Virus record (IMG/VR): IMGVR_UViG_3300009790_000027
Span: 1-39,908 of that record
Strand: one strand, 5' to 3'
DNA: 39,908 nucleotides
Source of the DNA: a virus
The stretch's first letter is position 1. Each line of letters begins with the position of its first letter. Shown piece after piece: positions 981 to 39,908 of this stretch. Under the pieces are notes generated by a model. That model worked only from the letters and a program-made list of their open reading frames with translations. It was not told the origin of the DNA and ran no database searches. Position numbers and translations under genes: made by a program.

Positions 981-1904
981 TCATTTTGCTCTCTCAGTAT
1001 CTATATAGAACCTATATGCTGTAGCATTTTTACCTTCTATTATTGGAACATATGGTTTAAAAACCAGCCATGTAGCTCCAGTTGGTTTAGGTGGAGCGCC
1101 TCTTTCCACGTGCCAACCTTTTACACCTTTTCCATATTCCTCTTTGTAGGTAGGTACTTTAATGTGAACTTGTTCATCCAAATAAGGTATTCCGTTCTTA
1201 CTTAACCTTGCCCTAGGAAGAGGAACCACAAATTCGTTATGACTGTGACCAGTCGCCACAATGTCAGCATCTGGAATAATAGATGCCTGACGTTTCACAT
1301 TAAGAGTTCCAAAAGACATTGGAGCATCACCTCCTGATCCGTGAAACATCCATAATGTTTTAGAGTCTCTTATAACTTTAAGCCCTTCTTTATTTACAAA
1401 TCTAAATTGAAATTTCACCCAAGTTGAATAACCGCCCGTAAAGCATTGAGCCCCAGTTCTTTCCCTTAATGAGTGTGTAAGCCTGTCAGTGAGATTTGTT
1501 TCATGGGCTTTAAGTATCGCGGTTTCGTGATTACCTAATCCAAAAACTGGCATTATATCAGCGTATGGTTCAAAAAAATCGGCTGCGGTATCAACAAGGG
1601 AATCTAAATATTCACCATTTTGATGTTCTGGCCTTACGTCAGATTTGCTTGATCTTCTGTCATATTTGCCCTGCATGGCACAAAATAAATCCCCACCGTC
1701 CAAGCAAAAAGTTTTAAGCTCCTTTGCTTTATCTAAGTGTTTTTTCTCCAGCTTTTGATCTGACTTAGGATTATCGTGATGCCTATCAAATGACAGTAGA
1801 CATTTAAAAGTTGTATCCTTGCCTATAGCCCCATATGGAAAATCCATAGTAATAACAAAGGCGTTTTTGGCGGTTTTTTTTATGCTCCAAAGAGGTGCGT
1901 CCAT
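981..1904 (-). CDS. Calcineurin-like metallophosphoesterase
   Basis: The 307-residue protein carries the di-metal phosphoesterase signature: D40-x-H42, GGD (70-72), GNHE (124-127), a His in FHGSGG (188) and GHSH (219-222). Such enzymes hydrolyse phosphomonoesters or phosphodiesters; the substrate here cannot be read from sequence. It is the only gene on the minus strand in the left 27 kb and is divergent from the ParB-like gene at 2092, so it must have its own promoter in the gap 1905-2091. Mre11/SbcD belongs to the same superfamily and an SbcC-like ATPase is encoded at 30609, but the genes are far apart and oppositely oriented, so a partnership is speculative. Phage nucleotide or DNA phosphatase is an equal alternative. 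Confidence 0.75.
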   Translation of the reverse strand: MDAPLWSIKKTAKNAFVITMDFPYGAIGKDTTFKCLLSFDRHHDNPKSDQKLEKKHLDKAKELKTFCLDGGDLFCAMQGKYDRRSSKSDVRPEHQNGEYLDSLVDTAADFFEPYADIMPVFGLGNHETAILKAHETNLTDRLTHSLRERTGAQCFTGGYSTWVKFQFRFVNKEGLKVIRDSKTLWMFHGSGGDAPMSFGTLNVKRQASIIPDADIVATGHSHNEFVVPLPRARLSKNGIPYLDEQVHIKVPTYKEEYGKGVKGWHVERGAPPKPTGATWLVFKPYVPIIEGKNATAYRFYIDTERAK

Positions 1905-2091: not shown

Positions 2092-2703
2092 ATGGAAATA
2101 GAAAATATTCCGATTGAGAAATTAAAGGTCTATGAGAAAAACAGTCGGACTCATAGCAAGAAACAAGTAGCTCAAGTTGTAGCTAGTATTAAAGAGTTTG
2201 GATTTACTAATCCTTTGTTAATTGATCAGGAAGGCACTCTGATTGCAGGTCATGGGAGATTAATGGCTGCAAAAGAATTAGGTATGGATCTCTTGCCGTG
2301 CGTAAGACTTTCACATCTTTCTGATGCTCAAAAAAGAGCGTATGTTATTGCAGATAATAAGATAGCGCTAAATTCTGGGTGGGATGATGACCTTCTGAAA
2401 TCTGAATTAAATGAATTGGATTCATTGGGATTTGATGTGGGAGTCACAGGTTTTGATGAGCTTTTGGAGGGAACTGGGCTTGAGGATAGTGCTAAAGGAG
2501 AAGTGGAGTTTTCGGAATATTTAAATGAAGCAAATAATTATGTGGTTCTTTTTTTCAACAATGACATTGATTGGTTGCAAGCCCAGACCCACTTCAATCT
2601 AAAGAGCGTTAGCTCTCAAAGAGCAAATGGCAAGCCTTGGAGTAAGGGTATAGGTAGGGTAGTCAATGGAGCAGAATATCTAGACAAGGTAAAAAACAAA
2701 TGA
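2092..2703 (+). CDS. ParB-like nuclease-fold (ParB/Srx) protein
   Basis: The 203-residue product begins with a ParB/sulfiredoxin-fold domain: the NSRTHS segment (17-22), a KEFGFTNPLLID strand pair, the GHGR motif (53-56) and the conserved ADNKIAL helix start (87-93). The C-terminal 80 residues match no family I recognise. In phages this domain is often fused or adjacent to DNA methyltransferases and base-modification enzymes rather than acting in partition. Here a methyltransferase follows with a 4-nt overlap and a glycosyltransferase follows that, so a role in directing or licensing a DNA modification is the most economical inference. There is no helix-turn-helix half as in true partition ParB. 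Confidence 0.75.
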   Translation: MEIENIPIEKLKVYEKNSRTHSKKQVAQVVASIKEFGFTNPLLIDQEGTLIAGHGRLMAAKELGMDLLPCVRLSHLSDAQKRAYVIADNKIALNSGWDDDLLKSELNELDSLGFDVGVTGFDELLEGTGLEDSAKGEVEFSEYLNEANNYVVLFFNNDIDWLQAQTHFNLKSVSSQRANGKPWSKGIGRVVNGAEYLDKVKNK

Positions 2704-3269
2704 AAGAAAGCAGGGTTAGAGAAAGGATCTATTTAGATAGGTCTAAGTTAGAAGAATTTGAAATTGATATATTAAATAGAAGGCATATTGAAAGGTATGC
2801 TATGGTCAGGCAATGGCTTTGGGGTAAAGTATTAGATGTAAGTTGTGGCTGTGGTTATGGAACTTATCTAGTTTCTAAAAACCCAGATGTAGAAAATATA
2901 ATTGGCATAGATATAAGTGATGATGCAATAAATTGGGCTAATGAAAATTTTAAGACCGATAAGTGTAATTTCATCAAAACTAACATTGAAGATTTTACGC
3001 AAGATGCAGATTCTTTAGTAAGTATAGAAACAATAGAGCATTTAGAAAATCCATATATTCTCAATGATTTGGCAGAACGGTGCCAGATTAAAGATATATT
3101 TGTTAGTTACCCAAGCAAAAAGACAACTCATTATAACCCTCACCACTTTAGAGATTTCATTGATGATGAAATAATCAGAGTGTTTTCTAATTATAGATTA
3201 GAACTAGTTATAAATCTGCACGAAGAAGTAAGAATACTTAAGTTATCTAGATATGTTTCAAGTTTATAG
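2700..3269 (+). CDS. Class I SAM-dependent methyltransferase
   Basis: The 189-residue protein has a clear Rossmann methyltransferase core. Motif I is VLDVSCGCGYG (44-54), the ribose-binding acidic residue is D71 in IIGIDIS, a motif II-like NIEDF lies near 95-99, and the motif IV/post-motif region reads SIETIEHLEN (108-117). The IEHLEN type is usual for methyltransferases of small molecules or sugars (UbiE/UbiG style) and lacks the DPPY or PCQ motif of ordinary DNA adenine or cytosine methylases. It overlaps the ParB-like gene by 4 nt and the glycosyltransferase by 17 nt, so the three are translationally linked. Its substrate may be a modified base, a sugar or a precursor; sequence cannot decide. 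Confidence 0.8.
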   Translation: MKESRVRERIYLDRSKLEEFEIDILNRRHIERYAMVRQWLWGKVLDVSCGCGYGTYLVSKNPDVENIIGIDISDDAINWANENFKTDKCNFIKTNIEDFTQDADSLVSIETIEHLENPYILNDLAERCQIKDIFVSYPSKKTTHYNPHHFRDFIDDEIIRVFSNYRLELVINLHEEVRILKLSRYVSSL

Positions 3270-4005
3270 TGCAAGTTATAAGAGAGCTGATATTGCTAGG
3301 ACGCATAAATATATTCCCTTTACAACTTATGTTGTTATGGAAAGTGAGGCAGATGAATATAGAAAAATACACGACAAGGTGTGGGCTATACCTGATGAGG
3401 TTCAAGGAAATCTAGCCAGAGTCTGGAATTATATATTAGATAATGGTGAAGGAGATGGAAACATAATCACTATAGATGATGATGTTAAATATTTTGGGAG
3501 ATGGAATGGTGCTAAACAAATAAAACTATGCAAGGAAGGTGCTTACAATATGATGCAAGAAGGCATGCAGTTAGCAGAAGATATGGATGTCAGGTATTGG
3601 GGGTTAAATTGCATTGCTGATAAGGGATCATATAGAGAGTATACCCCCTTTGGCACAAGGCAGTATATTGGTGGGCCTTTCCAAGCGCATAGGAACAATG
3701 AGCTAAGGTATGATGAAGAAATATACCTTAAGGAAGATTATGATATGACCTTGCAGGTTCTAAATAAATATAGGAAAAACCTAAGGTTAAATATGTATCA
3801 TTATATTTGTGAGCAAGCCACCATCAAAGGTGGGTGTGCAGATTACAGGAGCATAGCAAGGGAGATGGCTCAAAATGAGTTATTGAGGAAAAAATGGGGG
3901 TCAAATATAGTAAAAATGGATTCGGGAGCGTCACAGGTTAATAGGAAAAAGAAAACCACCTATGATATAAATCCCATCATAAAAATACCTATAACTGGAG
4001 TTTAA
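3253..4005 (+). CDS. GT-A glycosyltransferase, TET-associated (TAGT/GREB1-like) type
   Basis: The 250-residue protein opens like nucleotide-sugar GT-A enzymes: SASYKRADIARTHKYI (6-21), YVVMESEADEY (26-36), an IPDEVQGNLARVWN stretch (46-59) and a metal-binding acidic triad in ITIDDDV (72-78). A second acidic motif, KEDYDM (160-165), fits the catalytic or acceptor side. This order resembles the TET/JBP-associated glycosyltransferases described in phages and related to eukaryotic GREB1, predicted to add sugars to oxidised bases in DNA. No TET/JBP dioxygenase is visible in this window, so the hydroxylated base would have to come from elsewhere or the acceptor differs. An ordinary phage glycosyltransferase acting on a virion or cell-surface target is the alternative. 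Confidence 0.62.
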   Translation: MFQVYSASYKRADIARTHKYIPFTTYVVMESEADEYRKIHDKVWAIPDEVQGNLARVWNYILDNGEGDGNIITIDDDVKYFGRWNGAKQIKLCKEGAYNMMQEGMQLAEDMDVRYWGLNCIADKGSYREYTPFGTRQYIGGPFQAHRNNELRYDEEIYLKEDYDMTLQVLNKYRKNLRLNMYHYICEQATIKGGCADYRSIAREMAQNELLRKKWGSNIVKMDSGASQVNRKKKTTYDINPIIKIPITGV

Positions 4006-29391: not shown

Positions 29392-29787
29392 ATGAATAAA
29401 GTATTTGTATATGGAACACTTCAGAAAGATTTCGGAAATCATAGATGGATGGAAAATGCAGGAGGAGTTCTTTTAGGTAAGGCTGTTACAGCAGATTGCT
29501 ACCCCCTAATTGTAGAAGGGTTGCCGTATTTAATAGATAAGAAAGGTGAGGGTGAAAGAGTTCATGGAGAACTCTATGAAATCACTGATATAGGCCCATT
29601 AGATTGTTTAGAGAGTCACCCTTCATTCTATGAGAGAAGAGTCAGAGAGGTTGAGTTAGAGAATGGGTCAATAACTACAGCTTGGGTTTATTTCCTAAAT
29701 AGCAAGGATATGTGGTGGGATAATAAAGATCACAAGTATTGGTCATCATATTCAGAAGCTAGACAAATGCCAGTCAGCGCATATTAA
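29392..29787 (+). CDS. Gamma-glutamylcyclotransferase-like (GGCT/AIG2/BtrG) protein
   Basis: The 131-residue protein has the GGCT signature VYGTLQKDFGNH at residues 5-16 (YGTL binds the substrate), GKAVTADCYPL, and the catalytic-Glu region GELYEITDIGPLDCLESHP followed by FYERRVREV. Family members release 5-oxoproline from gamma-glutamyl amines or peptides. Together with the amidoligase (34371) and the class II amidotransferase (35552) it could form a gamma-glutamyl transfer or protection cycle. It has its own strong promoter and a leaderless start. The nearby RHH gene may regulate it. Confidence 0.85.
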   Translation: MNKVFVYGTLQKDFGNHRWMENAGGVLLGKAVTADCYPLIVEGLPYLIDKKGEGERVHGELYEITDIGPLDCLESHPSFYERRVREVELENGSITTAWVYFLNSKDMWWDNKDHKYWSSYSEARQMPVSAY

Positions 29788-30608: not shown

Positions 30609-32498
30609 ATGAGTCAAAAGCAAATAAATAAGCTAATAATAGATAATCTAAAAGGAACGTCTAGAGATATAGATTTCAGTAAGAAAATGGTATTCTGCGG
30701 TGGTAATGGGAGTGGAAAGTCTTCAATACTAGATGCGATCAAGCTAGCCTTTCTGGGAGAGCATGATGAGTTAGGAAAACAAGGTAAAAACCTATTGCAG
30801 TTAGGCACATATAACAAAAAGACTGAGGCAAAGGTACACTTTGAAGATGGTGATACCTGTGAATTTACCATTATGCCTATGGGAAATAGCGCAAAGACAA
30901 ATCATGTAGCAGGATTCGATGTTGATCCATCGCTTAGATTGAATCTATGCCCAGAAGAGTTCTGGGGTAAGGGAGATACAGCAAGAATGGAGACTTTACT
31001 TCAGATGTGTGGTGATAGCTCGTTAGTCACAAAAGATTTCGTATCTAATTGCATTGGGAGAGTTAGGGTCAGCGGAATGACAACAGAGGGGGAAGATAAT
31101 GACCTCGATGATATTAAAGGGTTGGCTAGTCTCGCAAATGAAATCATTATTGATGGGGATATATCTTCGCTAGCAAATTTAGATGAGCGGTTAGCAGAAG
31201 AAAGAGGGGCAAGAAATAAGATCAAAAAGAATTTAAAGGTAATGGCTAATGATCTCTTGGATGATATTCCTTTATTGGAAGCAACCGAAGAAGAGACTTC
31301 TGCAATTCATGATCAAATACATGAGTTGTTATCTAAGTCAGAAAAGATCGGTAAAAAGATACTTAAAGCAGAAATGGATATGGCTAAGAAGGAAAAGCTT
31401 CTTGATCTGCACATTTCAATCTTGGAAGCCGAGAATAAGCAGGAGATAGATGATTTCACTGAGGATCATGAAAATGGAGAGTTCGATGCAGACCCAAGTT
31501 TTTGTCGCATGCCTGATGAAGAGAAGTTAGGAATAGCAAAAGAGGCGTTATCTTCAGTTAAAAAGAAGATAGAAAAGTTGGTGGAATTAAAGTCTCCAGA
31601 GTACACAAAGCTTGCAGATGCTTCACCTCTCAATGGATGCATGTATAAAGTAAAGGGGAATGCTGTATTTACAGGGAGTTCCTTTGCGTTAGTTAATAGT
31701 ACCGTTTCTTGGTCTGAGGATGGCTTATTTGATGAGGCAGGGAATAATGTGAGAGAAAACAAGGAAGCGTTATCTGAGTTGCAAGTAACGCAAAATAAGC
31801 TCGAATCGGATATTAAGAAGTTAGAAGAGAGAAAGAAGGCTACGCAACCCCTCTCTGATAAAGATGTAGAGTTGCTAGAAAAGTATTTAAAGGTCGATTA
31901 TGAAGCTAAGATCGAGGAACTCAATTCAGAAAAGGAAGGTTTTTCTGTAAGACTTAAAGAACTTGAAGGGGAAATGTTTAAGATCCAGAATATGAGGGCT
32001 AAAAGTGACCTAATGAAGGAGGCGGAAACAAAATTGGGGGTAGCAGAGAGAAAGTGTAATGTCATTAAATCTGTACTTGCTACAGTGAGAGATATGCGTA
32101 AAGACATAGTTTCTTCTGCTGTAAATGATGCTCTAAGCATTGTAAATGCAGTAACTTTTGGCATTATTGAGGAAAATATAGAGTGGGATGGCAAAAAGAT
32201 GGGTCGCAAGATAAATGGTATCACATGGGTACCGATAGATACTTTTAGTGGGGCGGAGAAAGCTGTCACTCAAATGGGGTTAGGTGTAGCTTTAGCAAGT
32301 AGAAGTAATTTCCGTCTAGCAGTATTAGATGAGATTTCCAGATTAGATTCTCGAAATCAGCACCAATTATTCCTTAATTTAAATGAATTAATAGCTCAAG
32401 ATCGACTTGATCAATACATGGGGTTCTGTATAAATGCTCCAGAGGATTGCTCTGTTGATATAATAAGTATAGAAAAGGGTAATAGAGAATTGATGTGA
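30609..32498 (+). CDS. SbcC/Rad50-like (AAA_23) ATPase
   Basis: The 629-residue protein has Walker A GGNGSGKS (31-38), a long central coiled coil (about residues 190-300 and 370-500), an ABC-like signature FSGAEKAVTQMG, and Walker B LAVLDEISRLD, then a D-loop-like SRN. This is the SMC/Rad50/SbcC head plan, typical of phage recombination ATPases (for example T4 gp46-like proteins). They hold DNA ends for a nuclease partner. No SbcD/gp47 gene neighbours it; the metallophosphoesterase at 981 is the only candidate and is far away. A structured leader precedes it, and the NeuB-like gene overlaps its stop. Confidence 0.85.
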   Translation: MSQKQINKLIIDNLKGTSRDIDFSKKMVFCGGNGSGKSSILDAIKLAFLGEHDELGKQGKNLLQLGTYNKKTEAKVHFEDGDTCEFTIMPMGNSAKTNHVAGFDVDPSLRLNLCPEEFWGKGDTARMETLLQMCGDSSLVTKDFVSNCIGRVRVSGMTTEGEDNDLDDIKGLASLANEIIIDGDISSLANLDERLAEERGARNKIKKNLKVMANDLLDDIPLLEATEEETSAIHDQIHELLSKSEKIGKKILKAEMDMAKKEKLLDLHISILEAENKQEIDDFTEDHENGEFDADPSFCRMPDEEKLGIAKEALSSVKKKIEKLVELKSPEYTKLADASPLNGCMYKVKGNAVFTGSSFALVNSTVSWSEDGLFDEAGNNVRENKEALSELQVTQNKLESDIKKLEERKKATQPLSDKDVELLEKYLKVDYEAKIEELNSEKEGFSVRLKELEGEMFKIQNMRAKSDLMKEAETKLGVAERKCNVIKSVLATVRDMRKDIVSSAVNDALSIVNAVTFGIIEENIEWDGKKMGRKINGITWVPIDTFSGAEKAVTQMGLGVALASRSNFRLAVLDEISRLDSRNQHQLFLNLNELIAQDRLDQYMGFCINAPEDCSVDIISIEKGNRELM

Positions 32499-33280
32499 AA
32501 ACTGAAGTAATTGCTGATTTAGGCTTATGTCATGGCGGTAGTGTTGTACTTGCCATAGATTTAATAGATTCTGCAAAAGAGGTTGGATTTACAGCAGTCC
32601 AGTTACAAAAAGAGAAAATAAATGGGGAGGGTGAGCTAAGTTTTGAGGACTTTAAGTTAATTGATGATCATTGCCAGTCCATAGGCATAGAGTGGTCTGC
32701 ATCAGTTGGTAATGAAGAATGTGCGGAGATGATAGCTGAGTTTAGACCAAGGTGGGTGCGGATGCCGAAAGGGAAGGGGTATTACCTAGAACTTCTAAAA
32801 TATTGCATATGGAATTTCAATGAGGTGAGAATATCTACAGAGATGATGGGGTGGAACTCAATTAAAATACTGCATCGATTACTTTGCAGTCCTCCTAGTG
32901 GATTTAATACGGGTACGGTTCCGAAATCTGATAGAGTACTCCCCCAAAAACGGACGGGGGTAATTTTCCATGCAGGTATAGATAGACCTATAAGAGCGGA
33001 CGGGTGTGGAATGAAAGCAATAGAGAGAATGCGGATAGAAATGCAGTCACCCAGAATCGGAGTCGGGTATAGCGGAAATGATAAGTCAATACATTCAGGG
33101 GCGGTGGCAGTCGCCTATGGAGCAACTTTAATAGAGAAGCCATATATGGTGGGAGAGAATCCCTATAATGAAGATATGGGAATCAATGCACCCAGTGAGT
33201 GGGCAAGGCAATGTATAGAAGGAATTAAGGAGGCGGAAGCAATGATCGGTAATGCGGCAGTGTTCCCCATATCAGCATAG
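32495..33280 (+). CDS. NeuB-like nonulosonic acid synthase homologue (SAF domain missing)
   Basis: The 261-residue protein follows the TIM-barrel plan of NeuB: IADLGLCHGGSVVLAIDLID at the start (family: IAEIG-NH-GS), DSAKEVGFTAVQLQKEK, KLIDDHCQSIGIEWSAS, RWVRMPKG (family K-I-x-S), RISTEMMGW, IGVGYSGNDKSIHSGAVAVA, then GATLIEKPYM (family GAxxIEKHF). NeuB condenses PEP with an N-acyl-mannosamine to make a sialic acid. Here the antifreeze-like SAF domain is absent and the RMPKG change differs from the usual KI-S, so substrate is unclear. It starts at GTG 32495, overlapping the ATPase stop. A modified nucleotide or surface sugar route are both possible. Confidence 0.75.
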   Translation: MKTEVIADLGLCHGGSVVLAIDLIDSAKEVGFTAVQLQKEKINGEGELSFEDFKLIDDHCQSIGIEWSASVGNEECAEMIAEFRPRWVRMPKGKGYYLELLKYCIWNFNEVRISTEMMGWNSIKILHRLLCSPPSGFNTGTVPKSDRVLPQKRTGVIFHAGIDRPIRADGCGMKAIERMRIEMQSPRIGVGYSGNDKSIHSGAVAVAYGATLIEKPYMVGENPYNEDMGINAPSEWARQCIEGIKEAEAMIGNAAVFPISA

Positions 33281-34019
33281 GTGAAATACAGATTACAGCA
33301 ATAGTCCCAACAACCATCAGTTTATAAGAATGCGTAAAGCATTCTGCGAAGCCTCCAACTCGAATTTCAAAATCGGAAGTAGTAAATCCCACAGGAAAGA
33401 CACACAAACACACTAAGGGCAATAGAAAGCACAGGTACCCCCATAAGAAAGACAAAGCACCCCCTCCACCTATAGTACACATAACACATCATAACGGCTC
33501 TCTAGGTTAGAGGTGAGAGCCACCCCAAGGTAAATAAAACGGAATTACAGCAGTCAACCAACAACCCAACGTCCAAGATCCAATGCAACTTACAGCACTC
33601 CAACGACAACCCATCGCATTTAAGCTAAACGGGGCATTTACAAAACAACCGAAAACAAAGCAAAGCAAAATAAGGCTCGCGAGCAGAACAGAGAACCGAC
33701 AAAAAGGGGGCAGACGTCTCAAAAATATCAGGAAACGTAAACTATTCGCAGCTAAAGCTAGCGGCGGAAGGCATAACCAGCCTGAAAAGCTGGGCGGCGA
33801 TACAAAAATGTGTAGGTTATTACCTGCGGCGGCGGCGAAGTTGCGACCTATGGGGCCGCTAGGACGAACGAGCTGGGACGGCGGTGTACTTCGGCTATAT
33901 ATAATGCAACAGGAGCTAAACTCTGACGGGCAAACAAGAATGAAAATTTAAATTAAGACGGCGTTTTAAAAGATGCCAAGTTATTACCTGCTAAACAACA
34001 ACAAGAAAGGACAACGGCA
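33281..34019. other. Long non-coding, partly structured interval
   Basis: This 739-nt gap has no convincing gene; the ORFs in it are low-complexity and lack start signals. It holds several perfect hairpins: AGAATGC-GTAAA-GCATTCT (33327-33345), GGCTCTC/GAGAGCC (33496-33521), CCAGC/GCTGG (33777-33793) and the pair GTTGC (33840) with GCAAC (33906). It also contains three TTACAGCA repeats and two copies of TTATTACCTGC. It is GC-richer in its right half than neighbouring genes. Replication origin or untranslated RNA are both possible. Confidence 0.5.
33292..33612 (+). repeat. Three degenerate 23-24-nt repeats
   Basis: Copies at 33292-33315, 33544-33567 and 33590-33612 each begin TTACAGCA and continue with a C/A-rich arm containing CAAC and ACAACC. 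Copies 2 and 3 are 46 nt apart. The region 33281-33720 is markedly A/C-rich on the plus strand and has no convincing gene. Iterons of a replication origin, or protein-binding sites, are possible. Confidence 0.45.
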
Positions 34020-34235
34020 ATGCCAAGCAATCATATATCGAACGAGCCATATCACGAGTGGCTGAGAGAACAGAGCAAAAAACGAAGGGAAACCGAAAAG
34101 GTAACTGGGATTAAAGCAACCCCGAAGACAGGAGGTGGCTGGACGCTGACCTTGGATATTAAAAGTGACGATGATTTACCAGTGGTGATGAGAGGGCTGA
34201 CTGATTGGCTAAATGCCTATTCGGACGGCAAGTAA
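34020..34235 (+). CDS. Small hypothetical protein
   Basis: The 71-residue product starts at ATG 34020, with AAAGGA 9-14 nt upstream, one of the better Shine-Dalgarno matches in the window. It has a basic helical N-half (YHEWLREQSKKRRETEK) and a strand/helix C-half (GWTLTLDIKSDDDLPVVMRG). No family is recognised. It lies just after the TTATTACCTGC copy at 33980. Confidence 0.55.
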   Translation: MPSNHISNEPYHEWLREQSKKRRETEKVTGIKATPKTGGGWTLTLDIKSDDDLPVVMRGLTDWLNAYSDGK

Positions 34236-34285
34236 ATCGCTACTATATAGCCATAAAATAATTTAACTTTTATTGTTTTAATGTA

Positions 34286-34314
34286 TTGACATAAATAATT
34301 AGGTGTGATATAAT
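34286..34314 (+). promoter_or_regulatory. Consensus sigma70 promoter of the amidoligase gene
   Basis: TTGACA (34286-34291), 17-nt spacer, TATAAT (34309-34314), both perfect. The leader contains an 8-bp hairpin, GGTAGAAT (34322-34329) with ATTCTGCC (34338-34345), followed by AAACGAAACGAAAATC and ATG at 34371. The hairpin may stabilise mRNA or block early translation. Confidence 0.88.
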
Positions 34315-34370
34315 CTAATCAGGTAGAATTAAAAAAGATTCTGCCAGAACTAAACGAAACGAAAATCATT

Positions 34371-35441
34371 ATGCCTAATAATTCTAATAATCTGCTCTCA
34401 CACCTACCGAGTGAGTTTGCAAACTATGGTGGGAAGTGCCCTACCTATATCAGACCACTAAGTGGCTTCACTTTTGGTGCTGAATTTGAAGTTCTCTTGC
34501 CAAGGCTTGAGTCCACTAGCGATAATGCCGATGTACGTAATACGTATATTAATGGCTATCATGCCAGAAACCCAAGTCCAACCGATTGGTTACCTAGGTA
34601 TGTAGGATCACGGAACGGAAGACTTACCCATAGCTCAACTCATTGTGAGCGTGATGCGAGTGTAAGCACTAGCCGAAGTGGTTTCACTGGAGTTGAGTTT
34701 GTTACCCCTGCGGTGACGGGCGCTTTAGGTGTTAAGTATATCTGCGATATAGCCGATAAGCTTAGAGAAGAAGGTTGCCGAGTGAATACCACTTGTGGGC
34801 TTCATCTTCACGTAGGCCTTAAGGGCATAGTTGGTAATGCCAAAGTGGATGACGTTGTCGCTTTTCTCGCTCAGCTTAATAAGTTGGTTCTGAATTTCCA
34901 AGATGGGTTATATGCCCAGACGGGAACTAGGAGAGATCGCAATCACTATTGCAGACGCCATAATGAGAACGAAAACCTAATGGCTGTAGCCAAGACAGTT
35001 GGTGATAAGTCCAAGGGCTCTAAGGATCAAAGTGATTATACTCGTATATGGGATTATGCTGAGAGATACCGTTGCCTTAATCTTCGCAATCTGAATAGAG
35101 GAATGGGAGATAGTAGAGCGACCTTGGAGTTTCGCTTTCCTGCGGGAACTTTGAATACCGATAAGATCGCCATGCACTTAGCGACCATCGTTTTCCTCTG
35201 CCGATTGGCTTGGAAAACTCGCCATACGAAATCGGATTCGGTTTCTTGGAATCTTAATAAGGGGTACCAGAAGAATGCCTCTAAGGCAGGAGTAAGAACC
35301 CTAAAGGTTCTGCTCCGTAAGATGAACTCTGCCAAGCAGGGTAAGTATCTTAAGTACGAGTCCACGATCTTCGCCGATAAGTGGGAATCGATGCAGGAGA
35401 CTGCCTTAAGGATGGCTGAAAAGTATGATAATAGAGCGTAA
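34371..35441 (+). CDS. Amidoligase (Amidoligase_2, COOH-NH2 ligase)
   Basis: The 356-residue protein has the hallmarks of the Amidoligase_2 family of glutamine-synthetase-like/ATP-grasp-related ligases: GAEFEVL (36-42), THCERDASV (90-98), GVEFVTPAV (107-115), TCGLHLHVG (near 140), RCLNLRNLN and LEFRFPAGTLN (about 250-260). Such enzymes are predicted to form amide bonds between amino or carboxyl groups, often with a class II amidotransferase and a GGCT. Here both are present within 7 kb. The gene has a perfect promoter, an optimised codon pattern (CGT/CGC, AAG, GAT) and a leader hairpin, all pointing to strong expression. The acceptor and product are unknown. Confidence 0.85.
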   Translation: MPNNSNNLLSHLPSEFANYGGKCPTYIRPLSGFTFGAEFEVLLPRLESTSDNADVRNTYINGYHARNPSPTDWLPRYVGSRNGRLTHSSTHCERDASVSTSRSGFTGVEFVTPAVTGALGVKYICDIADKLREEGCRVNTTCGLHLHVGLKGIVGNAKVDDVVAFLAQLNKLVLNFQDGLYAQTGTRRDRNHYCRRHNENENLMAVAKTVGDKSKGSKDQSDYTRIWDYAERYRCLNLRNLNRGMGDSRATLEFRFPAGTLNTDKIAMHLATIVFLCRLAWKTRHTKSDSVSWNLNKGYQKNASKAGVRTLKVLLRKMNSAKQGKYLKYESTIFADKWESMQETALRMAEKYDNRA

Positions 35442-35460
35442 AATAAATTAAATAAATCGC

Positions 35461-35488
35461 TTGTCTTATTGTCCATCTATGATATAAT
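35461..35488 (+). promoter_or_regulatory. Promoter with TTGTCCATCTATG spacer (site 1)
   Basis: -35 TTGTCT (35461-35466), 16-nt spacer carrying TTGTCCATCTATG (35469-35481), -10 TATAAT (35483-35488). The leader holds the hairpin TCCCC-TATAAA-GGGGA (35506-35521) and ends in ACGAAAGGA before ATG 35552. The spacer motif recurs at 36904, 39366 and, in variant form, 39814. Confidence 0.8.
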
Positions 35489-35551
35489 AATAAGTATTAA
35501 ATAACTCCCCTATAAAGGGGAACAAAATCAAAACAAAACGAAAGGAAAAAA

Positions 35552-36289
35552 ATGTGCCTAGCAATTTATAAACCCAAAAACAAGGAGGTAAGTAAGTCAC
35601 GACTTCAGGAAGCCTTCAGACGCAACCCGCATGGAGCAGGTATCGCTTATGCCAAGGATGGTAAAGTAGTAATCAAGAAAGGCTTCTTTAGCTTTGCCAA
35701 GTTCTGGAAAGCTTACAAAAAGATCAGGACTAGCAGAGCGATGCTGATTCACTTCAGGTGGGCTACCCATGGTGAACACACCACGGAGAACTGCCACCCA
35801 TTCAAGATCAACGGACATACGGCGATGATTCATAATGGAGTTATCGACCGAGTGCGAGTTGACGATGATGGAAGTGACACTTCAAACTTTGTTGATCGGA
35901 TACTTGGGCCGATAGTTAATTCTCACCCAAGCTTCATCCACACAATTCATGGCAAGAAAGTCATCAATTTAGCGATTGGCGAAAGCAAGGTGGTAGTAAT
36001 GAGCGGAGACGGTGAGGCTGTTATCTTCAACGAGAAGAAAGGCCACTGGGACAAAGGCGTATGGTATTCAAACCATAGCTATGAAGCTCCAAGACGCGCC
36101 CCAAAGTATACAAACTTTAGTACCCAAGGGTACGGGACTTACTGGGGTGGTAAGAAGTCCAAAGCCAAACCCAAGGTTCATTCAAGCGAGATAGTTGGAA
36201 GTGGCTTCACTGATCCACACGCCAACAATAGAGCGAATGGCAGAAGCTGGATTGACGATCTAGAAGACGCAACAGCGGGAAAGCGATAG
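35552..36289 (+). CDS. Class II glutamine amidotransferase (Ntn), zero-frame form
   Basis: The 245-residue protein starts MCLAIYK, with Cys2 as the N-terminal nucleophile after Met removal. Further motifs are NPHGAGIAY (25-33), LIHFRWATHGEHTTENCHPF (65-84), MIHNGVID and DTSNFVDRIL (about 109-118). The class II fold releases ammonia from glutamine for transfer to an acceptor. As a partner of the amidoligase it could provide amide nitrogen or deamidate a peptide. The frame ends at TAG 36287-36289, but the codons before it (GCG GGA AAG) form a slippery heptamer with a hairpin just downstream, so this may be one of two products. Confidence 0.85.
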   Translation: MCLAIYKPKNKEVSKSRLQEAFRRNPHGAGIAYAKDGKVVIKKGFFSFAKFWKAYKKIRTSRAMLIHFRWATHGEHTTENCHPFKINGHTAMIHNGVIDRVRVDDDGSDTSNFVDRILGPIVNSHPSFIHTIHGKKVINLAIGESKVVVMSGDGEAVIFNEKKGHWDKGVWYSNHSYEAPRRAPKYTNFSTQGYGTYWGGKKSKAKPKVHSSEIVGSGFTDPHANNRANGRSWIDDLEDATAGKR

Positions 36290-36441
36290 GGGCGGAAGCC
36301 CCCACTCCCGCAGAAATTGATGCCCCATATTGTGAAGATTACCTGCCCATGGAGTTGGACTTCAGCCCAGATCTAGGCGAGATTTACGAAGGGCTTGACG
36401 CTTACGAGGGATTTAGCTTAGATGATAAAAGCCAAGGTTAA
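35552..36441 (+). CDS. Class II glutamine amidotransferase, predicted -1 frameshift extension
   Basis: The heptamer G GGA AAG (36277-36283) is read as GCG GGA AAG in the zero frame. It is followed by a 5-nt spacer and a perfect hairpin GGGGC-GGAA-GCCCC (36289-36302) that begins on the stop codon. After a -1 slip, the frame is open from 36283 to TAA 36439-36441, adding 52 residues such as APTPAEIDAPYCEDYLP and an acidic FSPDLGEIYEGLDAYEGF. No normal start exists near the beginning of this extension; the first ATG in that frame is at 36349. The extension fills the gap and overlaps the next gene. GGGAAAG is the same heptamer used by the lambda gpG-T frameshift. The signal is read directly; function of the tail is unknown. 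Confidence 0.6.
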
Positions 36442-36727
36442 CATGAAAGATTTAGCACATGGGCTCCAGTGGCTGAAAAGGCAATCGGAGTTCGACAGAG
36501 ATCACCAAGTAATAATGCTAGCTTGTTCACGGGAGAAATACCTATGGACAAGCTATTCTCTTATAGAGAAACGGGCAGGGTTAGGGGATCAAGATCTGCA
36601 CGACACGCTCCATTACTTATGTAAAATAGGCATATTGTATATTTATATATCAGAAGATAAGCCACGAAGAGTTTTCTTTGCACTTCGCGAAAGAGTGGAA
36701 GAAAGTAACGAGGGGTTTTTGGAGTAA
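36422..36727 (+). CDS. Winged-helix-like small protein
   Basis: The 101-residue product resembles a small winged helix: helix MKDLAHGLQWLKRQSEF, LIEKRAGLGDQDLHDTLHYL (recognition helix) and ILYIYISEDKPRRVFFAL as wing strands. It starts at ATG 36422, inside the end of the -1 extension of the amidotransferase, so it depends on the same mRNA. No catalytic motif is visible. It may regulate the right-end operon or bind RNA/DNA. Confidence 0.5.
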   Translation: MIKAKVNMKDLAHGLQWLKRQSEFDRDHQVIMLACSREKYLWTSYSLIEKRAGLGDQDLHDTLHYLCKIGILYIYISEDKPRRVFFALRERVEESNEGFLE

Positions 36728-36780
36728 CCCTTAGACCACTTGGTCGCGGTGACGTCTGCTGTGGGGGTTAGGCGTCACCG
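36725..36780 (+). terminator. Hairpin/pseudoknot after the winged-helix gene
   Basis: CGGTGACG (36747-36754) pairs perfectly with CGTCACCG (36773-36780); TAACCC (36725-36730, including the stop codon) can pair with GGGTTA (36765-36770) inside its loop; GACCA/TGGTC (36734-36745) is a further small stem. Together they form a pseudoknot-like fold followed by TTTCGGTTT. It may terminate transcription or protect the mRNA 3' end. Confidence 0.5.
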
Positions 36781-36895
36781 TTTCGGTTTACGGACGGCAC
36801 CCTCGCCTCCTAATTATTACCTACAGTTGCCCGAATCTACGCAAACTACGGTAATTCGCTCTACAAAAAAAATAACAGTAATACATAAATAATAC

Positions 36896-36923
36896 TTGTC
36901 TAGTTGTCCATCTATGTTATTAT
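36896..36923 (+). promoter_or_regulatory. Promoter with TTGTCCATCTATG spacer (site 2), leaderless
   Basis: -35 TTGTCT (36896-36901), spacer with TTGTCCATCTATG (36904-36916), -10 TATTAT (36918-36923). ATG at 36930 begins 7 nt after the -10 end, predicting a leaderless transcript. Confidence 0.8.
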
Positions 36924-36929
36924 AGTCAT

Positions 36930-37235
36930 ATGAACAAAAATCCTATTATTTACACAATCGCTAAGTCAGCAGCAAAATCAGCCCCTCGCTACATTGAGGA
37001 TGCTGACTTGCTAATCTCCCAAATCATCAGGGAGCTTGAGCTTAAGTCCGAGCAGGAGCTTGAGTGGTGCGGTAAGATCGTCAATAGAGCGATTCACATC
37101 TGCAAGCAAGGCAAAGGAGCCAAAGGCCTCGAACGCTTCGAGCGGGCCGCCTTCAGGGCTTGCTTCATTACTCCTTGGGAAGAGGATAATGAAAACCCTA
37201 TCAACGGCCCTTGGGGACTTTGGAACGGAAGATAA
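36930..37235 (+). CDS. Hypothetical protein from a leaderless transcript
   Basis: The 101-residue product is not recognised. It is helical: AKSAAKSAPRYIEDADLLI, IIRELELKSEQELEWCGKI and ERFERAAFRACFITPWEE, ending NGPWGLWNGR. Codon use is optimised (AAG, CGC, TTC). The promoter shares the TTGTCCATCTATG spacer, so it belongs to the same regulatory group as the amidotransferase. It precedes another small gene by 19 nt. Confidence 0.6.
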   Translation: MNKNPIIYTIAKSAAKSAPRYIEDADLLISQIIRELELKSEQELEWCGKIVNRAIHICKQGKGAKGLERFERAAFRACFITPWEEDNENPINGPWGLWNGR

Positions 37236-37254
37236 TATAAAGAAAGACTATACG

Positions 37255-37650
37255 ATGAACGAATTAATCACTTATAAATCAGAGACAGAAACCAGCGAGG
37301 GAACTTTCAAAACCACATTCGGGGGCGTGGAGTACACAGGCTATTATGAAGGTGTGATAGAAACCACCACAGAGTGGAGTTCCGAGTTCGGTTGCATGGG
37401 AGTTACAAACCAAGAAATTTTAGAGGACACTATACATATAACGAGCGAAGCCTCAGGGGTGGAGAATTTAGTGTGCCGAGACGATCACGAAGAGATATAC
37501 GAATGGGTTTACAATAACGTAGATTTACTAGATGTCTGGGATAACAGTAGGTGGACGATAGAAAAGCCCGCACCTAAGATTATGATGGCGAGGTATCTAT
37601 TGGATAAGCATGCATTGTATTTCCCACATGGATATTTAAATGCAATTTAA
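37255..37650 (+). CDS. Hypothetical acidic protein
   Basis: The frame opens upstream inside the previous gene, but ATG 37255 is the best start: it lies 19 nt after the previous stop, giving 131 residues. The product is acidic and beta-rich at first (ETSEGTFKTTFGGVEYTGYYEGV, in part) and helical later (EIYEWVYNNVDLLDVWDN, MMARYLLDKHALYF). No family is recognised. Confidence 0.6.
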   Translation: MNELITYKSETETSEGTFKTTFGGVEYTGYYEGVIETTTEWSSEFGCMGVTNQEILEDTIHITSEASGVENLVCRDDHEEIYEWVYNNVDLLDVWDNSRWTIEKPAPKIMMARYLLDKHALYFPHGYLNAI

Positions 37651-37663
37651 TTCAATTAAAGTA

Positions 37664-37692
37664 TTGACACTAATATATAAGTGTAGTATAAT
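37664..37692 (+). promoter_or_regulatory. Consensus promoter of the structured RNA region
   Basis: TTGACA (37664-37669), 17-nt spacer, TATAAT (37687-37692). Transcription should start near 37699. No gene follows for 640 nt, only structured RNA. Confidence 0.88.
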
Positions 37693-37698
37693 AGAATC

Positions 37699-38235
37699 AG
37701 TTCTTTGAAATAACCAATTTTAAGCAGTGACCAGAAAAACATGCCAGTAGGCGAGTAACACTGGAGACACGCCCTCGATGGAGACCGCAACAGTGCCTCA
37801 GGCCAAGCGACTCAACAGGAGGGTAGGAATTAACCTAGAAAAGAAATGTGAGTTTCTCGCCACTTGGACACTGTAAAATTTAGCTTTAATTAGCCGAGGT
37901 AGAGAGGGAGGAGTCCCGCTTTACCCACTTTGGGCCGCAAAACTTCCCTAGCAATAGGGATCGGAGGAGGATGAGAAGAACCTCGGGTCTGGCGCACAGG
38001 GCCAAAGCTAATTAGAGTTACCCCCTCTAGGGACAGACGATACGTGCAGGGAATTACAAGATAAGGCCCCATAGCGATAAGCTGTTTCCCTACAGGGGGA
38101 GTACCTACCGTATTTGGGAGGTGTAGCATCAGTTTTTGATTTTACTGAAGCGATAAATATGTGCAGGCTAGCCCGCCAAGGCATACACTGAAAGGCTAGT
38201 TATGCGGGTGCAGTTATTTTGATCTGCGCTGACGT
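37699..38235 (+). ncRNA. Large ornate structured RNA (about 540 nt)
   Basis: After a consensus promoter the sequence has no credible ORF but many complementary segments: CCAGT/ACTGG (37744-37764) with GGCG/CGCC (37750, 37770) as an H-type pseudoknot; CAGTG+CCAAG (37791-37807) with CTTGG+CACTG (37863-37873); TAGG/CCTA (37824-37837); TAGCTTTAATTAGC (37881-37894) with GCTAATTAGAGTTA (38007-38020), 14 pairs; CCGAGGT/ACCTCGG (37894-37986); CCCTA-GCAA-TAGGG (37946-37959), a GNRA hairpin; CCCCCTCTAG/CTACAGGGGG (38021-38099); CTAGCC/GGCTAG (38168-38199). Size and phage context recall ROOL and GOLLD RNAs, but I cannot assign a family by eye. No tRNA-like or RNase P core is seen. The 3' end is uncertain. 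Confidence 0.75.
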
Positions 38236-38297
38236 TCATCATATTTATTGTGCGCTATACCTCCCTTTTTTTATTTTCATTTTTTTATCTTTTTCTC

Positions 38298-38325
38298 TTG
38301 TCAACCATCCATAATAATGTATAAT
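38298..38325 (+). promoter_or_regulatory. Promoter of the 38332 gene, leaderless
   Basis: -35 TTGTCA (38298-38303), 16-nt spacer, -10 TATAAT (38320-38325), then 6 nt to ATG 38332. It shares the -35 TTGTC with the spacer-motif promoters but lacks the full TTGTCCATCTATG element. A leaderless transcript is predicted. Confidence 0.8.
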
Positions 38326-38331
38326 GTATAT

Positions 38332-38784
38332 ATGAACGAATTAAATAAATCTACTTATGAGGCCCTTGCGGGAGAATATGAAGAGCAGCAGGAAGTGTTG
38401 CGTAACGAGAATCTTGTCGCTCCTTACATAACAGGAGCAAAATTCTTAGACAGGCTAAGAGCGTGGTCTAAGGAGAATCTCCCTGAAGACCTTCACAAAG
38501 CTTGGCTTGTAGAAGCTGCAGTTGAGTACCACTTTAAGGGAGGAAGACCAAGCCAAACTTACAACAGGCAGATCTCCAAGGCGGTGGAGGCCTATAAAAC
38601 AGGAGAGGTATATGAGGCTCCGTATACGAAAGCAAATGAGGAGGAGATTGAGAGGGATAAGAAGCGCAGAGATATGGGGCTAATCTATGAAGGGATTGCC
38701 GAGCACGAGGATTTCATCGATGAGCATGAGGAGCATAGACTTAGGGCAGAGGAGCATGAGTATTACATGGCGCAGATGGATTAG
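38332..38784 (+). CDS. Hypothetical charged helical protein
   Basis: Although the frame is open from 38248, ATG 38332 is placed 6 nt after a consensus -10 box and is the likely start, giving 150 residues. It is helical and charged with HKAWLVEAAVEYHF and YEGIAEHEDFIDEHEEHRLRA, and His/Glu-rich at the C-terminus. No family is recognised. A Rho-independent terminator follows 20 nt downstream. Confidence 0.65.
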   Translation: MNELNKSTYEALAGEYEEQQEVLRNENLVAPYITGAKFLDRLRAWSKENLPEDLHKAWLVEAAVEYHFKGGRPSQTYNRQISKAVEAYKTGEVYEAPYTKANEEEIERDKKRRDMGLIYEGIAEHEDFIDEHEEHRLRAEEHEYYMAQMD

Positions 38785-38803
38785 GATAAGAGATATCACG
38801 AAG

Positions 38804-38831
38804 GGAGGGGCTAACGCCTCTCCTTTTTTTT
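38804..38831 (+). terminator. Rho-independent terminator
   Basis: GGAGGGGC (38804-38811), loop TAAC, GCCTCTCC (38816-38823), then eight T. Eight pairs with one G-U; a textbook intrinsic terminator ending the 38332 transcript. Confidence 0.92.
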
Positions 38832-39356
38832 GCCTACATTACTTACTAGTAAACTTACATGTATGCTGGGGGCCTGTGCCGCTGGAATGCAAAACGCTAT
38901 AAAAATAGGGAAATGGTAATGTTGGAGTAGGTACCACCTCGCCTTCGACATAGCAAAAAAGGGGTAGTTTGGAATTTTACCGCTGGGACTCCGATGTTCC
39001 CAGTAAGTTCCAAAAAGTTCGCAACTCAATATTAGCGGGCAAGAGTTCACAAGAGACGGCCAAGGGCGATAGATTTTTTAGCCGCCAAATTATTACCTAC
39101 AACGTATGCTGACTAAGCGGCGTCCCGCCTAACCTAAGAGCAGCCAATTCCCTGGTTCTCCTCAGCTTTATCTACATTTTACGGCCTGCGACATAGCATT
39201 TCTAATACATGGCATTTGGTGCCAATAACATAGCAAAATCCACCTTGTAACGAGTTGGTGCCCAGTCTATTAAAGCTTTTGTGTTTTTTTAACAATTTAC
39301 GTGAAAAATGTTCGCTTTTCAGATCTTACTATTTTCACTTTTAATCATTTTATTAT
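38832..39356. other. Non-coding structured interval between terminator and site-3 promoter
   Basis: This 525-nt stretch has no convincing gene. It contains hairpins CTGGGA/TCCCAG (38983-39003), GCGG-CGTC-CCGC (about 39118-39129), TGGCA-TTTGG-TGCCA (39210-39224), three copies of ACATAGCA (38948-38955, 39191-39198, 39228-39235), and the fourth RTTATTACCTRC copy (39089-39100). The composition is GC-richer than the phage genes. An RNA or a replication/packaging region is possible. Confidence 0.45.
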
Positions 39357-39385
39357 TTGCTATTGTTGTCCATCTATGATACTGT
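39357..39385 (+). promoter_or_regulatory. Promoter with TTGTCCATCTATG spacer (site 3), leaderless
   Basis: The spacer motif lies at 39366-39378. The aligned -10 is TACTGT (39380-39385), and a TTGCTA -35 lies at 39357-39362. ATG 39392 is 6 nt after the -10 box. The -10 is weaker than at the other sites, so activity may depend on a regulator at the spacer. Confidence 0.65.
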
Positions 39386-39391
39386 GCGAAT

Positions 39392-39622
39392 ATGAACGAG
39401 ACAATAGACTTAGAAGAATTGGAAGAGGAGTTCTTAGCAACCCGTCCAGAAACTACAAAGATATTGGAGGCTCACAATCCAGAGCTTACCAAGGTAATAC
39501 ATATGGAGTACATCCTAGACCTAGGAGAGAGAGGGATTGTAAGATCCTTTGAGTGGAATGACAAAGATGGGCTGACTCTTGAAATGAAACCAAATTGGAG
39601 GAGATCAATAGCATGTTTATAG
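39392..39622 (+). CDS. Small acidic hypothetical protein
   Basis: The 76-residue product starts at the leaderless ATG. The first half is acidic and helical (DLEELEEEFLATRPETTKIL), the second half is beta-like (SFEWNDKDGLTLEMKPNW). No family is recognised. It overlaps a very small membrane protein gene by 10 nt and is in the same operon. Confidence 0.6.
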   Translation: MNETIDLEELEEEFLATRPETTKILEAHNPELTKVIHMEYILDLGERGIVRSFEWNDKDGLTLEMKPNWRRSIACL

Positions 39623-39708
39623 CACTTACTGTATTAATTGTATCCGTAGCCTGCGTAGTAGCTGGTGTACTTGCGAAGATCGCAGATAAATTTAACTGGT
39701 TAGACTAA
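39613..39708 (+). CDS. Tiny single-pass membrane protein
   Basis: The 31-residue ORF begins at ATG 39613 and is nearly all hydrophobic (FIALTVLIVSVACVVAGVLA) before a basic/aromatic end (KIADKFNWLD). It lies inside the same operon, overlapping the previous gene. It may be a small membrane peptide; no family is recognised, and expression is unproven. Confidence 0.4.
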   Translation: MFIALTVLIVSVACVVAGVLAKIADKFNWLD

Positions 39709-39709
39709 T

Positions 39710-39781
39710 ATGAGAATAGATAAGAGTAACCCACATGATGATGAGCCGATAGATATCTATGGCTCAGGTGATGAAGATTAA
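39710..39781 (+). CDS. Tiny acidic ORF
   Basis: The 23-codon ORF starts 1 nt after the previous stop (TAATATG) and reads MRIDKSNPHDDEPIDIYGSG and then DED. It is short and could be a leader or an overlap artefact. It is listed because spacing and start position are similar to its neighbours. Confidence 0.3.
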   Translation: MRIDKSNPHDDEPIDIYGSGDED

Positions 39782-39805
39782 TTGAAAAAAAAGATAAAGT
39801 TTTTC

Positions 39806-39833
39806 TTGTATTGTTGTCCGTCTGTAGTATTAT
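39806..39833 (+). promoter_or_regulatory. Promoter with TTGTCCGTCTGTA spacer (site 4), leaderless
   Basis: -35 TTGTAT (39806-39811), spacer with TTGTCCGTCTGTA (39814-39826, two or three changes from the other sites), -10 TATTAT (39828-39833), then 6 nt to ATG 39840. The conserved spacing and spacer place it in the same promoter family. Confidence 0.75.
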
Positions 39834-39839
39834 ATAATC

Positions 39840-39908
39840 ATGAACGCAATAACAGATATTTTGACTTACATCAACTACAAACACAATAGGGAGCTTAGCC
39901 CGCATATC
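39840..39908 (+). CDS. N-terminal part of a gene cut by the window end
   Basis: The ORF starts at ATG 39840, 6 nt after a site-4 promoter, and runs to the last base of the window, 23 complete codons (MNAITDILTYINYKHNRELS, then PHI). Its frame is the same as that of the partial gene at 1-339 if the end joins the beginning: the junction would read PHI-IANPDY. The visible start is helical. It may be the promoter-proximal part of the NPDY-repeat protein. Confidence 0.6.
   Translation, partial: MNAITDILTYINYKHNRELSPHI

Follow-up and report, generated by a model that had tools for sequence, protein, structure and literature searches.

The 39,908-base window analysed here, a whole virus record that carries terminase, portal, head protease, major head and tape-measure genes, encodes a 261-aa protein that is a genuine homologue of NeuB, far beyond chance, by both sequence and fold. 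Judged from its aligned residues, the gene product is very probably not a working sialic acid synthase. The reading that we favour, with a probability of roughly 0.6, is that of a very divergent single-domain NeuB barrel that has lost the canonical condensation of PEP and is kept as a pseudoenzyme or for some other purpose, possibly together with the ATPase encoded immediately upstream.

NeuB family membership, fold and relatives

The 261-aa protein matches the Pfam NeuB family (PF03102) with 58.4 bits against a curated cut-off of 22.1 (E=9.5e-16). It matches the NeuB_NnaB equivalog TIGR03569 with 67.5 bits (E=1e-18) and TIGR03586 with 29.1 bits, both below the equivalog cut-offs of 399.65 and 340.25, respectively. 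Since the first of these scores lies far under its cut-off, the name N-acetylneuraminate synthase is not warranted. The gene is one intact frame, with AGAGAA-type purines directly 5' of its GTG start, and the start shares 4 nt (GTGA) with the TGA stop of the upstream ATPase gene (Table 1). An earlier reading of this DNA from the sequence alone (the sequence-only reading) had given the same gene limits, the same overlap with an SbcC-like ATPase gene and the same family, and reading the sequence together with the Pfam match and the modelled barrel confirmed all three.

Table 1. Positions of the features in the window (position 1 is its first base)
Feature	Position	Strand	Remarks
Metallophosphoesterase-like protein	981-1904	-	weak match to phage DNA repair exonuclease phrog_7339
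ParB-like protein	2092-2703
Methyltransferase	2700-3269
TET-associated glycosyltransferase	3253-4005		PF20691, E=2.4e-9
Gamma-glutamylcyclotransferase	29392-29787		flanks the ATPase/NeuB pair
Orphan protein, 218 aa	29816-30472	+	upstream of the ATPase; OB-fold ssDNA-binding look, by eye only
SMC/SbcC/RecF-like ATPase, 629 aa	30609-32498	+	Walker A GGNGSGKS; SMC_N E=8.6e-11; AAA_15 E=9e-9
NeuB-barrel protein, 261 aa	32495-33280	+	GTG start; single domain, no SAF
Amidoligase_2	34371-35441		flanks the ATPase/NeuB pair
Class-II glutamine amidotransferase-like protein	35552-36289		flanks the ATPase/NeuB pair

The AlphaFold (AF2) model of the protein, calculated with an alignment of 41 viral relatives, has a mean pLDDT of 89 and a pTM of 0.87. 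The model is guided by these NeuB relatives and its confidence depends on the alignment, a single-sequence prediction used as the control being uninformative at pLDDT 33. In structural comparisons, NeuB, PseI and SpsE structures made up the eight best PDB matches (Z 27.6-30.4 over 236-240 residues; 6ncs at Z 30.4), and DAHP and KDO8P synthases came next (Z 20-23). The sequence-only reading had called for an alignment with such structures and had made its assignment depend on the prediction of a NeuB barrel; the barrel formed, at Z ~29-30. In the model, the alpha/beta barrel of NeuB type thus appears to be kept. It superposes on the barrel of Neisseria meningitidis NeuB (1xuu) with a Z of 29.4 over 240 residues at 2.5 Å, and is alike in SpsE/PseI-type synthases (1vli, 8h2c; Z 27.6-28.4). 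Unlike N. meningitidis NeuB and the SpsE/PseI-type synthases, the 261-aa protein has no SAF domain and its metal and PEP residues are replaced.

The SAF (antifreeze-like) domain, which carries the catalytic Arg314 of N. meningitidis NeuB, was correctly reported as missing by the sequence-only reading, and Pfam confirmed its absence. However, this absence is the rule in this branch rather than an oddity, since there is no SAF match in any of the 42 proteins tested (the query and 41 viral relatives) and the bacterial relatives, which come from many phyla, are mostly of a similarly short length (~290 aa). Because the 41 viral relatives likewise have no SAF domain, its loss alone is not decisive for the function of the query. 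Nor are such genes rare in phages, as had been supposed: at least 304 IMG/VR viral contigs encode a NeuB relative, and the best 80, which were retained, are 266-324 aa long. A genome scan showed that NeuB-type enzymes are widespread in bacteria, among the matches listed. In three sampled viral contigs (L012, L020 and L067), the NeuB gene lies beside a cytidylyltransferase gene (CTP_transf_3), with methyltransferase, GT2 or aminotransferase genes as neighbours; these are likely viral nonulosonic-acid cassettes with an intact-site, SAF-less NeuB.

Two further NeuB-like genes were noted. An E. coli plasmid (L006, 2290-3834) encodes a 514-aa protein annotated as NeuB family, whose barrel follows an N-terminal domain of ~200 aa and is 29% identical to the aligned query. 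In phage DLP4, a NeuB-like call was made within the lysis cassette (PMC6469090), and a short literature search for phage NeuB/NulO genes and TIM-barrel pseudoenzymes returned nothing closer.

Active-site residues

Residues were compared in the numbering of Neisseria NeuB, verified on the printed 1xuu alignment, using as a yardstick 160 relatives, of which 80 are cellular and 80 viral (best 80 of at least 304). The equivalents of N29, K53, K129, S132, Y186, H215 and H236 (N12, K36, K89, S92, Y164, H195 and H216 in query numbering) are invariant in all 160, partly as a selection effect at positions 12 and 36, because the patterns used to retrieve the relatives cover residues 3-13 and 31-39; positions 89, 92, 164, 195 and 216 lie outside these patterns and are hence unbiased. 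None of the seven is kept in the query, which has C12, Q36, R89, K92, R164, N195 and P216 instead. In the 1XUZ structure, the metal is bound by His215 and His236, and PEP by Lys53, Lys129 and Ser132. Going by the alignment, the query has neither of the two metal-ligand histidines and little of the PEP site. The sequence-only reading had named a loss of PEP-binding residues as an outcome that would refute it, and this is the outcome observed. Since the residues that hold the metal and PEP are gone, the protein is most likely no sialic acid synthase.

The differences extend beyond the seven positions. Of the 46 positions with a conservation of at least 90%, the query retains 26, while the other viral proteins retain nearly all of theirs (36 of 55 at the lowest). 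The SAF-less NeuB-like proteins of ~270-300 aa (such as viral L012, L041 and L108, and Leptospira 6ncs_A) have the same barrel and length class and share with the query the GYSG and E-K/R-x strands, and their motifs align with it ungapped. However, they keep all seven invariant residues, whereas the query keeps none. The residues around the ligand have been given as Glu25, Gln55, Asn74, Thr110, Phe112, Lys129, Asn184, Tyr186, Ser213, His215, Glu234, Phe288 and Arg314 (PMC6795526). The equivalent of Glu25 is D8 in the query, which retains H13 and, as Q38, S114, S193, E214 and D227, the equivalents of Q55, S154, S213, E234 and D247. Some chemistry at the mouth of the barrel is possible with the latter five residues.

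RMPK occupies the position of the K-I-x-S motif, where the sequence-only reading had noticed RMPKG; on the aligned residues, this alteration was one sign of a more extensive active-site loss that it had overlooked. Its description of the barrel motifs as clear is apt for the fold and the retained residues, but not for the equivalents of K53, Y186, H215 and H236. Misalignment was ruled out as the cause of the losses, given that there is no gap in the alignment of any of the five motif stretches. Sequencing error was also ruled out, as the changes from serine to lysine and from tyrosine to arginine need at least two base changes and seven sites are affected.

An improbable alternative is that of a synthase of NulO, KDO8P or DAHP type that still works, with PEP bound at a remodelled, perhaps metal-free site. 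The barrel fold and E214, D227, S193 and S114 are retained, R89 and K92 could hold the phosphate, and metal-free KDO8P synthases are known and appear among the structures that the model matches. However, both metal-ligand histidines and the equivalents of K53, S132 and Y186 are all replaced together, and no sugar-pathway partner was detected among the window ORFs scanned. In the metal-free KDO8P synthases, the metal cysteine is replaced by asparagine, and the lysines and the histidine are retained.

In the favoured reading, the Mn2+-dependent PEP condensation of the family would have been lost upon the replacement of the seven invariant residues. Positive charge is found at three aligned positions of the catalytic face, retained at one (K129 to R89) and added at two (S132 to K92 and Y186 to R164). 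With these three residues on the former PEP face, an anionic ligand at this place is plausible.

Divergence and maintenance of the reading frame

The nearest sequences are 25-29% identical to the query, among the matches listed in pattern-dependent searches. No close relatives were found by tblastn in 50,697 phage records or by peptide patterns in viral contigs, and alignment patterns of the N-terminal and C-terminal halves returned no relative closer than 25-29% from the viral contigs. When viral contigs were searched with a DNA pattern in which both histidines are lost (G-Y-x-x-N...G-A-x-x-x-E-x-P), 20 of them matched, of which none was a NeuB by tblastn. On the tree of the relatives, where the query is not placed firmly, its end branch has ~4-5 changes per site compared with a median of ~0.27. 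Whole-genome searches for kin of the phage gave weak matches only. The only near relative of the phage found is a 4.1-kb viral contig (L087); its portal protein and that of the window share 92% identity.

An open frame over such a large divergence, with the barrel core apparently kept, favours a selected protein over drift. For this single sequence without close relatives, selection would have retained the barrel as a pseudoenzyme, or the barrel may have adapted to another ligand. The corresponding alternative is that of a decaying auxiliary metabolic gene, in which an ancestral phage NulO synthase drifts neutrally after the loss of its pathway. The concentration of the losses at catalytic residues, the lack of close relatives and the lack of a pathway partner among the window ORFs scanned would fit such decay. 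However, despite several changes per site, the 261 codons contain no stop or frameshift, where a saturated neutral frame would be expected to hold roughly a dozen stops, and numerous glycines of the fold and residues of the core are kept, which makes decay unlikely.

Genomic setting and possible roles

The ATPase encoded upstream matches phrog_1499 (E=1.3e-12) and the SbcC-like phrog_77. No relatives of it were found in viral contigs, and none in phages at E<=1e-5, where only weak partial matches (E>=0.04) were present. The sequence-only reading had proposed a survey for the ATPase-NeuB pair; no ATPase match was found near 80 other viral NeuB genes (best 80 of at least 304). Searches of Pfam, PHROG, NCBIfam and the PDB gave no match for the 218-aa protein upstream of the ATPase. 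In contrast to the three sampled viral NeuB loci, the window gave no Pfam match to a cytidylyltransferase (CTP_transf_3), GT2, aminotransferase or any further nonulosonic-acid gene in the ~30 ORFs scanned, which include only part of the small ORFs of a record that may be incomplete. With the active-site residues lost and no such partner among these ORFs, the earlier proposal of a sialic acid synthase, or of a sugar product that modifies DNA, is unsupported.

The overlap of the two genes suggests joint expression, with translation probably coupled to that of the SMC-like ATPase, and makes an accessory role in the ATPase operon the likeliest setting. Such a role, rather than sugar synthesis, is our leading guess, though a tentative one, the link being adjacency and the 4-nt overlap. 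Overlaps of 4 nt are common in phages. A more specific version, in which the NeuB barrel has become a non-catalytic or new-ligand partner of the SMC/SbcC-like ATPase in phage DNA metabolism and binds an anionic ligand, for instance a nucleotide or DNA, at the former PEP face, is doubtful.

It is very unlikely that the protein serves as a decoy or regulatory subunit, binding a NeuB-type enzyme of the host or the ligands of that enzyme to alter the host surface sugars in infection: such enzymes are widespread in bacteria (among the matches listed) and mixed dimers with a dead paralogue are conceivable, NeuB being dimeric (PMC6795526), but an identity of 25-29% to any other NeuB among the matches listed makes hetero-dimerisation doubtful, and NeuB dimers form by swapping of the SAF domain, which the 261-aa protein does not have.

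Other parts of the window showed further features. The metallophosphoesterase-like protein is possibly an SbcD-like partner of the SbcC-like ATPase, 29 kb apart from it. The ParB-like, methyltransferase and PF20691 glycosyltransferase genes follow one another at 2092-4005 and may form a module that modifies DNA or glycans; a TET gene was not noticed. The right arm (33500-39900) has a G+C content of ~0.43-0.45 compared with 0.35-0.41 elsewhere and few long ORFs, pointing to a different origin or to small genes that were called poorly.

The comparison indicates that viruses commonly encode SAF-less NeuB proteins whose active sites are intact, some of them in cytidylyltransferase cassettes. If the 261-aa protein has been kept once its metal and PEP residues were lost, it would stand as a clear example of a phage pseudoenzyme in the PEP-condensing synthase superfamily; from a short literature search, we know of no described case. 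Should the reading as a NeuB pseudoenzyme be true, annotation of viral proteins as 'N-acetylneuraminate synthase' by a profile match alone would call for caution.
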